A DNA stretch of 64,000 nt from Salinibacterium sp. ZJ70. GTDB taxonomy: Bacteria; Actinomycetota; Actinomycetes; Actinomycetales; Microbacteriaceae. The notes under the pieces were generated by a model, which did no database searches, was not told where the DNA came from, and saw nothing but the letters and a program-made list of their open reading frames with translations. Below, one piece after another: positions 30,032 to 32,179 of this stretch; position 1 is the first letter of the stretch; every line of letters starts with the position of its first letter. The translations under genes and the position numbers were made by a program. The stretch spans positions 1,550,001 to 1,614,000 of the forward strand of contig NZ_CP061770.1 in the NCBI RefSeq assembly GCF_011751865.2. Reading direction: 5' to 3'.

Positions 30032-30208
30032 CCTGCGAGCGTTCCCCACCAGAAGTGGGCACGCTCCCCCGACCGAACCGATCGATGACCCTCGACCGGG
30101 GCACACGCGTCTTCGCGGTGAGCGAAATGCGCGGCCGCGGCCGGAAACCTCCAGCGAACCGTGCTTGTATGGGACACACGCACCACCACACGAGGGAAGG
30201 AGCATGAC

Positions 30209-30430
30209 ATGACCGCAACCGATGGAACCGTCGAGCTGGAGCGTCACGCCCTCACTGCCCTCGACCGCTGCGACATGTGCGGCGCTCAGGCGTACGTGCG
30301 GGTGACCCTCAGCTCCGGCGAACTGCTGTTCTGCGGCCACCACGGCAACGCATACAAGCCCAAGCTCATCGAGACGGCACTCGACTGGCACGACGAGTCG
30401 GCCCGCCTGCGGGAGCCTGTCGCTGGCTGA
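30209..30430 (+). CDS. DUF7455 small putative metal-binding protein
   Basis: A 73-residue protein with CDMCG near residue 21 and CGHH near residue 42, a CxxC...CxxH arrangement that could bind zinc. It matches the short actinobacterial DUF7455 family, which often lies near sigma factor or topoisomerase genes. Function unknown. An AAGGAG ribosome site precedes the ATG. Its stop overlaps the likely CTG start of the next gene, the first alanine-racemase-like protein, by eight bases, so the small protein may couple translation of that gene. Confidence 0.85.
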   Translation: MTATDGTVELERHALTALDRCDMCGAQAYVRVTLSSGELLFCGHHGNAYKPKLIETALDWHDESARLREPVAG

Positions 30431-31109
30431 GATCGCCGCGGCCGCGCCGCGTCGCATCGCGGCCATCGACCTCCAGGCTCTGTCAGCCAACATCACCGAA
30501 GCCGCACCCGGTTTCCTCGACGCGCGCGCTGATGCCTACGGGCACAGCATCCCACTCGTCGGACCGGTGGCGCGTTCGCACGGCATCGACACGATCGTGG
30601 TGAGCGACGAACGGGACGCCGAACGCGCCCGAGGCGTCGGATTCACCGACATCCGCATCCTGCGGGTGGTCGACGGCGGCGATGCGGAGGCCGTCTACGG
30701 CGTCCGTGGGGGCTCCCGACCGGTGCTGAGCCTCACGGGCGAGGTGGTCGCTCTCAAGCGCGTCGACGCGGGAGCAGGCGTCTCCTACGGCTACACGCAC
30801 CGCACCCCGGAGGCCACGAACCTCGCCCTGGTCGGTCTCGGCTACGCCGACGGGGTTCCCCGTCTCGCCTCGAACCGCGCCTTGGTGCGGCTGGCCGACG
30901 GCGTGCATCCGATCGTCGGTCGCATCGCCATGGACCAGTGCGTCGTCTCCTGTGGGGACGCGCACCCGGCACCGGGCGACCAGGTCGTGCTCTTCGGCGA
31001 CCCGTCCAGGGGCGAGCCGAGCGCTGCACAGTGGGCGGAGTGGACCGAACGCTCCCCGCTCGCACTCACCGCCGGACTCGGCGACCGGATCCGGAGGGTC
31101 GCGCGATGA
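30423..31109 (+). CDS. Alanine-racemase-like protein with reduced barrel and intact C-terminal domain
   Basis: A 228-residue protein read from CTG at 30423, with GGGAG seven bases upstream. Residues 12-24 (RIAAIDLQALSAN) match the N-terminus of alanine racemase, and DARADAYGHS at 33-42 matches the PLP site, but Arg35 replaces the lysine. About 130 residues of the barrel are then missing. The C-terminal domain is complete: catalytic-type Tyr122 in AGVSYGYTH, GYADGVPR at 140-147 and GRIAMDQ at 166-172. There is no ATG, GTG or TTG until 30567, which falls after the PLP site. It overlaps the next racemase-like gene by four bases. I infer that it is the tyrosine-donating partner in a heterodimer. 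A pseudogene is the alternative, but the reading frame and coupling are intact. Confidence 0.75.
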   Translation: MAEIAAAAPRRIAAIDLQALSANITEAAPGFLDARADAYGHSIPLVGPVARSHGIDTIVVSDERDAERARGVGFTDIRILRVVDGGDAEAVYGVRGGSRPVLSLTGEVVALKRVDAGAGVSYGYTHRTPEATNLALVGLGYADGVPRLASNRALVRLADGVHPIVGRIAMDQCVVSCGDAHPAPGDQVVLFGDPSRGEPSAAQWAEWTERSPLALTAGLGDRIRRVAR

Positions 31110-32179
31110 GCGCTCGTCTCGACATCCACCTCGACGCGATCCGCGACAACGTCGCACGCCTCGCGGCGATCGCAGCCCCCGCGCGCACGATGTTCGCTGT
31201 CAAGGCGGACGCCTACGGACTCGGCGTGGTCGAGGTCGCACGCGCCGGTCTCGCAGGTGGCGCTGACTCACTCGCGGTGCTCGAGGTGCCCGCGGCTCTC
31301 GCTCTGCGCGATGCCGGAATCGAGGTTCCTCTCTTCGCGTGGCTGCATGGCGCGGATACCGACTTCGGCGCCGCGATCCGCGCGGACGTCGACCTCGGCA
31401 TCTCGACGATCGGCGATCTCAGCCGCATCGCTGCGGCCGCCCACGATCGCCCTGCGCGTGTGCACCTCAAGATCGACACAGGCCTCCATCGCAACGGGGC
31501 CGACCCCGCGGACTGGCCGCTGCTGGTCTCCTCGGCGCTCCAGCACGCCGCCGAGGGCCGGGTGCACATCGCGGGCATCTGGTCGCACCTCGCAGACGCC
31601 TCCCCCGAGGACGATGCGCGCGCGCTCGCGGCCTACCGGGATGCGCTCGAGGTTGCGCGTCGACTCGGCGTCGACCTCGACGGACCGAGTCGCCCCCTCC
31701 TGCACATCGCCGCGAGCTCAGCGGGCATCCGCGACCCTGAGGCCCGACTCGACCTCGTGCGCTTCGGCATCGCCGCGTACGGCGTCTCGCCGTTCGACGA
31801 CATCGACGGCCCCGGCCTCGGCATGCGCGGCCCCGTCACCCTCACGGCGAGCGTCGTGGACGTGCGCGATGGTCAGGCTGTGATCGACGTCGGTTCGGCA
31901 GACGGCCTCCCGCCCTCGGTGCTCGGGCCGAGCGGGACGGGCGCGCAGGTGCTGCTCGGCGGCGCCCGCGCGTCGATCGCCTCCATCGACATCGACGCCG
32001 CGAGCGTGCGAATCCCGGAGGGTGTCGAGGTGCGCATCGGAGACGACGTGATCGTGTACGGCCCTGGCGACACGGGAGAGCCGACGATCGAGGAGTGGGC
32101 GCACGCCGCTGGCTCGATCGGCGACGAGATCCTCGCGCGCGCGTCGCGCCGCATTCCGCGCCGCTACCTCGGTCTCTGA
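31106..32179 (+). CDS. alr: Alanine racemase-like PLP barrel protein lacking the catalytic tyrosine loop
   Basis: A 357-residue protein. The PLP barrel is complete: Lys33 in FAVKADAYGLG, Lys122 and Arg129 in HLKIDTGLHRNG, His161 in WSHLADAS, the serines of AASSAG and Arg219 in LVRFGIAAYG. In the C-terminal domain the GxGVGYG loop that carries the catalytic tyrosine is deleted: VVDVRDG runs directly into QAVIDVGSADGLP. The MDQ motif is replaced by DIDA. In alanine racemase dimers each active site takes its lysine from one subunit and its tyrosine from the other. The preceding gene supplies the missing part, so a heterodimer is the simplest model. The ATG overlaps the upstream stop (ATGA). Confidence 0.8.
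   Translation: MSARLDIHLDAIRDNVARLAAIAAPARTMFAVKADAYGLGVVEVARAGLAGGADSLAVLEVPAALALRDAGIEVPLFAWLHGADTDFGAAIRADVDLGISTIGDLSRIAAAAHDRPARVHLKIDTGLHRNGADPADWPLLVSSALQHAAEGRVHIAGIWSHLADASPEDDARALAAYRDALEVARRLGVDLDGPSRPLLHIAASSAGIRDPEARLDLVRFGIAAYGVSPFDDIDGPGLGMRGPVTLTASVVDVRDGQAVIDVGSADGLPPSVLGPSGTGAQVLLGGARASIASIDIDAASVRIPEGVEVRIGDDVIVYGPGDTGEPTIEEWAHAAGSIGDEILARASRRIPRRYLGL

Follow-up and report, generated by a model that had tools for sequence, protein, structure and literature searches.

Overlapping alanine racemase-like genes of Microbacteriaceae with complementary active-site losses: a probable heterodimeric racemase with one composite site

Two adjacent alanine racemase-like (alr-like) genes, here called A and B, are located in a window of 64,000 nucleotides from the genome of Salinibacterium sp. 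ZJ70 (contig NZ_CP061770.1, positions 1,550,001 to 1,614,000); all features described below lie on its forward strand. Each of the two lacks one half of the active site, and this half is encoded by the other gene. With a probability of roughly 85%, their products would form an obligate heterodimeric PLP-dependent racemase with one composite site, a reading in which heterodimer, single site and racemisation are all deduced from sequence. This arrangement, which had been proposed in an initial annotation, appears well supported by the complementary losses, the co-occurrence of both genes, natural fusions and a sister case of reversed order.

The alanine racemase of the textbooks is a homodimer, and the enzyme is a classic target of antibacterial agents. 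Met312, Asp313 and Tyr284 are taken here to be residues that the partner subunit provides, and His166 is presumably the correct number for the conserved histidine. According to PMC3485190 and PMC3245724, each site of the homodimeric enzyme combines the lysine of one subunit with the tyrosine of the other, and the former also covers the catalytic role of Tyr265′; Geobacillus residue numbering, with numbers and roles as given in these two sources, is used throughout.

Gene A (30423-31109) encodes a short alr-like protein with the C-terminal half-site only. Its Pfam match is Ala_racemase_C alone (PF00842; model positions 1-126 of 127), a complete domain at 30711-31106 (residues 101-226, E = 1.3e-32). 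The motif ARADAYGH carries Arg35 (30525-30527) in place of the PLP lysine, as already read in the initial annotation. Tyr122 (30786-30788), within the GVSYG of AGVSYGYTH, is the counterpart of the catalytic Tyr265′, and GYADG as well as the MDQ motif with Met170-Asp171 (30930-30935; by sequence reading the counterparts of Met312′-Asp313′) are retained, all of them where they had been located before. The tyrosine is present but Arg35 occupies the PLP position, so that A does not hold lysine and tyrosine in one polypeptide. Of the earlier estimate that about 130 barrel residues were lost, the loss itself stands; the spacing between lysine position and tyrosine, 87 residues in A versus 227 in a complete alr of the same genome, puts its size at about 140. 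Against TIGR00492 the protein scores 96.5 bits, under the curated cut-off of 168.

The first in-frame ATG, GTG or TTG of A is the GTG at 30567, with none 5′ of it, and a protein starting there would have 180 aa. A start at the CTG at 30423, which gives 228 aa, is probable, as a Shine-Dalgarno-like GGGAG (30411-30415) lies 7 bases 5′ of it, three relatives (L012, L014, L015) have GGAG before a CTG at the same spacing, and residues encoded 5′ of 30567 are conserved in an alignment of 18 A proteins. Some of the orthologs have ordinary starts. Directly 5′ of A lies a DUF7455 gene (30161-30430; PF24254, E = 1.3e-24) whose stop overlaps the start of A, and translation of A may depend on this gene.

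Gene B (31106-32179; 357 aa) combines, according to Pfam and an alignment of 16 B proteins, a complete PLP barrel with a damaged C-terminal domain. Ala_racemase_N is matched over its full length and Ala_racemase_C in part (model positions 35-127). The motifs VKADAYG, which by sequence reading contains the PLP lysine (Lys33, 31202-31204, equivalent to Lys39), KIDTGLHR and VRFG are intact, so that the complete barrel described earlier is borne out; Arg129, His161, Ser204 and Arg219 are retained as well. The loss of the GVSYG loop (previously given as GVGYG) and the replacement of the MDQ methionine are confirmed by the alignment, which also places Asp340 (32123-32125) at the position of the inner-gate Tyr354. 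With Lys33 present and the counterpart tyrosine absent, B likewise has no lysine and tyrosine in a single polypeptide, and its score against TIGR00492 (155.5 bits) is below the cut-off of 168. The genes share the four bases ATGA (31106-31109), stop of A and start of B, which agrees with the overlap reported at the outset.

In the proposed enzyme, the barrel of B would bind PLP via Lys33 and supply the residues that a racemase subunit contributes to its own site, and the C-terminal domain of A would reach into this site with Tyr122, as second acid/base, and Met170. The opposite site, made of the A barrel and the C-terminal domain of B, would be lost, which would leave one site per dimer instead of two. 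Translation of the overlapping genes would be coupled. Together, the two sequences hold an alanine racemase-type site, with Lys39, Tyr43, Arg136, His166, Ser204 and Arg219 from B and Tyr265 and Met312 from A. Fold family and residues are common to A/B and the homodimeric Alr (fold type III PLP, TIGR00492); the latter, however, has two identical sites, whereas each subunit of A/B lacks one half and no more than one site should be able to form.

For the distribution of the pair, 398 genomes of Microbacteriaceae were searched with a profile built from 18 A proteins. Locus counts are lower bounds, and the occurrence of A or B alone was judged in the loci read, some A-like matches (e.g., in G196 and G292) being left unread. 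Once duplicate and broken loci had been set aside, at least 101 separate A-B loci were found in 100 genomes or records with 31 genus labels, a mixture of codes and names of which some may coincide. The other loci read comprise at least three A-B fusions, 24 tandems of two intact genes (T1-T2), seven separate and nine fused pairs of a reversed kind (B′-A′) and 41 single complete alr genes. Among the loci read, B without A was seen for two genes, both at contig ends. All nine genomes of the window's genus gave matches to the A protein; five contain the A gene proper, and in the rest the match is a complete alr. A and B occur together in five of the nine, and in the four genomes without A no match to B at E 1e-100 was among the matches listed except the complete gene of G005 (best five candidates per genome scored). 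Of 347 genomes of the order, 11, all of them Microbacteriaceae, gave a match at E 1e-56 or better, a coarse bound that does not state what share of the 347 lies outside the family. Of 7997 candidates scored in a protein search with A, 1565 reached E 1e-20, a number that can include complete alr and hence is no count of A. Those of the best 120 matches that bear a name are entered as 'alanine racemase', 'alanine racemase C-terminal domain-containing protein' or 'hypothetical protein', with one garbled name; many Microbacteriaceae proteins named 'alanine racemase' may be inactive alone.

The partition of the catalytic residues between A and B is close to absolute. For a first count, 89 A and 90 B proteins were sorted by profile scores and not by residues, which makes the count independent; the 90 B include four cut-off genes and the mis-sorted, broken L059. 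Lys39 was present in none of the 89 A and in 90 of 90 B, and both Tyr265 and Met312 were present in 89 of 89 A and in none of the 90 B. Loci added later were typed by residue, with T1 and T2 distinguished by the residue at 354. In this larger count the lysine was found in 0 of 102 A (in two of which the whole region is missing) and in 104 of 104 B. Tyr265 occurs in every one of the 102 A and in none of the 102 readable B, Met312 in 102 of 102 A and, on realignment, in one of 100 readable B (L162). The prediction of joint occurrence with identical losses was borne out in the loci read. The own-subunit residues Lys39, Tyr43 and Arg136 are found in 104 of 104 B, and His166, Ser204 and Arg219 in every B that is not cut off or gapped. 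Mixed residue states in A or B were not seen among the loci read. L059, from Pseudolysinimonas kribbensis, is a complete-type alr broken by a frameshift in its database record.

These invariants also bear on the idea that B is active alone, as a one-base racemase or in another fold III reaction, with A regulating or stabilising it without a catalytic role. Activation of a partner by a dead paralog is known, for example from trypanosomatid deoxyhypusine synthase, the catalytic subunit of which is said to require a catalytically dead paralog. The likeness to A/B consists in the dead paralog beside a catalytic subunit; that enzyme is, however, not PLP-dependent, is eukaryotic and is encoded by genes that are neither adjacent nor overlapping. 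As the invariant residues of A include the catalytic tyrosine and methionine that B lacks, and a mere regulator need not keep both in 102 of 102 proteins, activity of B alone appears unlikely.

The barrel of A has been shortened to very different degrees. As cut by the profile, A proteins range from 377 down to 140 residues, with tyrosine and methionine retained. In L218 and L227-L230 the barrel retains most of its length and none of its catalytic residues. The A proteins of L221 and L222 consist of little beyond the C-terminal domain (140-163 residues, profile-cut), and L191, L219 and L220 have A and B fused in one frame, with a nearly full-length dead A barrel in L219 and L220. Intact tandems, long dead barrels, fusions and nearly bare C-terminal domains would form a natural series, its complementary outcome shared by many genera, by which the question of how a homodimer becomes an obligate heterodimer would be directly testable.

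The window is part of a contig of 2.84 Mb, and its genome contains two further complete alr genes. One of them (L002, C1:627249-628304) is of another type, with Phe at Tyr43 and His at Tyr354, and was placed near Kitasatospora and Micromonospora genes in trees. With two complete enzymes of the same fold at hand, A and B could in principle pair with these, as mixed dimers that tune the host's alanine racemases, and not with each other. A and B are, however, adjacent and mostly overlapping, and A-B pairs also occur in genomes in which no complete alr was found among the matches listed (G311, G327, G377 (domain positions only), G242, G084 and G197), which makes such mixed dimers very improbable. 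For the obligate A:B heterodimer itself, the two complete alr genes of the host and the four of nine genus genomes without the pair are points against, as are the frameshifts in L015, the unusual start of A (CTG or other), the methionine of L162 and the 15 of 101 pairs without the four-base overlap.

Both A and B are under purifying selection. In 25 close pairs for each gene, dN/dS (Nei-Gojobori) lay between 0.06 and 0.27 in A and between 0.08 and 0.20 in B; some sequences enter more than one pair, and the genes of the window itself are not represented. Before the analyses of selection and overlap, L015 (frameshifted), L059, L048 and L077 were dropped and duplicate loci skipped. A four-base overlap of start and stop is present in 86 of 101 A-B pairs (55 ATGA, 30 GTGA, 1 CTGA; 15 without) and in all 24 T1-T2 pairs. 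As it recurs in 101 A-B loci and the tested pairs show a dN/dS well below 1, the A/B pattern is beyond chance. A frameshifted copy in a close strain, which the initial annotation had regarded as a sign against the pair, does exist in one of the five genus copies, possibly as an assembly error. The copy concerned (L015) has a frameshift in A and in B and belongs to G001, at 89% the least complete of the nine genus genomes, so that either assembly error or recent decay may be at work. That the window contains a decaying duplicate without function, as the missing catalytic parts, the frameshifts of G001 and the lack of a standard start in A could indicate, is hardly credible in view of a dN/dS far below 1 in the tested pairs (the window's own pair being outside the 25), the wide conservation and the strict residue partition; selection largely refutes decay, unless the lineage of the window has just lost the function. 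Chance or debris as an explanation of the pattern as a whole is ruled out by selection and residue partition.

Pairs of the reversed kind contain the barrel gene first. In the second pair of the genus labelled g77, B′ has the lysine and Tyr354 and is without Tyr265 and Met312 (7/7), and A′ keeps Tyr265 and Met312 with the lysine absent (7/7). In g21 and g73, B′-A′ forms one frame of 624-746 codons from stop to stop (nine read). A set of 42 genomes, chosen mostly for such genes, was scanned with both alr Pfam families. No complete alr frame was among the matches listed in 15 of the 42 (90 to 100% complete), namely eight of g21 (G028, G107, G167, G216, G259, G296, G327 and, by domain positions, G377), four of g73 (G311, G388, G142, G238) and three of g77 (G242, G084, G197). 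The fused B′-A′ is the only alr-type gene among the matches listed in eight of the 42 (G028, G107, G167, G216, G259, G296, G142, G388), which also have proteins with the N-terminal domain only, some of them of YggS size; for G142, G167, G216 and G238 the fused form of the gene was read from domain positions. The three g77 genomes would have two composite enzymes, with no complete alr among the matches listed and with the two places confirmed by neighbours in G242, and G309 (87% complete) has A and B alone. No D-alanine transaminase over the curated cut-off was found in the 12 of the 15 genomes that were searched (all except G327, G377 and G238), and weak matches under the cut-off occur in 11 of the 12, as in most control genomes. 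With B′-A′ as sole alr-type gene and no such transaminase over the cut-off, complementary halves are apparently able to make D-Ala, barring an unrecognised route or uptake.

A literature search, with subscription journals mostly beyond reach, found no account of an alanine racemase that is split or heterodimeric in nature, in line with the earlier statement that none was known. Among other PLP enzymes, serine palmitoyltransferase (SPT) offers a parallel; being of fold type I, it differs from A/B in fold, and its reaction is another one. A and B show the same pattern of a duplicated homodimer, being related, found together and affected by different active-site losses, with T1-T2 as intact tandem relatives. 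Like A/B, eukaryotic SPT1/SPT2 is a PLP heterodimer in which one subunit lacks the PLP lysine and presumably a single interface site is present, an arrangement that PMC6148460 describes as unique within its enzyme family. For alanine racemase, dimerisation is called essential in PMC3245724, which quotes Strych and Benedik 2002. A/B differs from that study in consisting of natural genes and not of laboratory mutants. The conclusion of Strych and Benedik reportedly rests on the mixing of mutant subunits.

The genomic contexts point to two sites of alr-type genes. In the 13 contexts compared, A-B lies between a gene for gyrase/topoisomerase subunit B and a sigma-70 gene, flanks whose names come from Pfam for the window and some of the other contexts. 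The other site (eight contexts) has a glmS-like gene and ACPS on one side and tsaE and a TsaD-family gene on the other, and is occupied by T1-T2 (five), by the B′-A′ of G242, by the fused B′-A′ of G107 or by the complete alr of the window's genome. L217 (G369, g77) has an intact T1-T2 at the place that B′-A′ occupies in its congener G242; six further g77 genomes contain B′-A′.

The barrel tree divides B and T2 on the one hand from T1, B′ and complete alr on the other (100/99), and B′ sides with complete alr rather than B. T2 is nested among B. One origin of all B was rejected in this tree (p-AU 0.0017 for a single B clade), although the group is defined in part by losses, the branches involved are long and T2 may have been repaired by exchange. 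The C-terminal tree sets A and fused A′ off from all other sequences (99/96) and joins the g77 A′ to T2 (97/89); the A tree is not firmly rooted. The C-terminal trees point toward a single side for A, against the multiple-origin signal of the B barrels, and the position of all A and fused A′ on one side of a branch suggests that fused A′ is possibly derived from A.

Ancestry probably lies with the intact, overlapping T1-T2 tandems (24 loci). Judged by gene order and barrel, A-B looks like a product of T1 turning into A and T2 into B, and the g77 B′-A′ looks like the reverse, with T1 turning into B′ and T2 into A′. The grouping of fused A′ with A would fit such a reverse-split history poorly. 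Splitting of alr probably arose more than once, also in reversed order. A possible but rather doubtful scenario is that the T1-T2 ancestor was a heterodimer with two different sites, one of the T1 barrel (Tyr354, alanine) and the T2 tyrosine and the other of the T2 barrel (Asp or Glu at 354, another amino acid) and the T1 tyrosine. Reciprocal decay would then have left A-B with the T2-barrel site, B′-A′ with the T1-barrel site and g77 with both, and one gene pair would have split in opposite directions.

The substrate of A-B may differ from alanine. The inner-gate Tyr354, a mark of alanine specificity, is replaced by an acidic residue in 100 of 100 readable B (Asp in 55, Glu in 45, four of the 104 being cut off), and T2 has Asp or Glu in 24 of 24. 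T1, the upstream gene in all 24 tandems, has Tyr in 22 and Trp in two, B′ has Tyr in 16 of 16, and single complete alr genes have Tyr in 27 of 41, His in 11 and Asn in three. As B contains Asp or Glu where alanine racemases mostly have Tyr354, another, perhaps basic, substrate is hinted at, and alanine as substrate of A-B may need revision. That this substrate is not alanine but a basic amino acid destined for the wall, for example ornithine, diaminobutyrate or lysine, is conceivable, at somewhat less than an even chance, and the pair may reveal how wall D-diamino acids are made in these bacteria. Tyr354 is likewise replaced in lysine and broad-specificity racemases that use other substrates, by Thr391 in Lyr and Ala393 in Bar according to PMC3485190; these enzymes, however, are homodimers with a non-acidic replacement, in contrast to the Asp or Glu of B. 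Microbacterium walls contain D-ornithine, L-lysine or diaminobutyrate, as stated in PMC10757982. The A-B pair is present in three strains of M. testaceum (L063, L071, L074), and the same source assigns D-ornithine to the other species of the M. testaceum cluster. M. enclense (L056, L082), for which it gives L-lysine as the wall amino acid, also carries the pair, which disfavours a simple link between the pair and D-ornithine.
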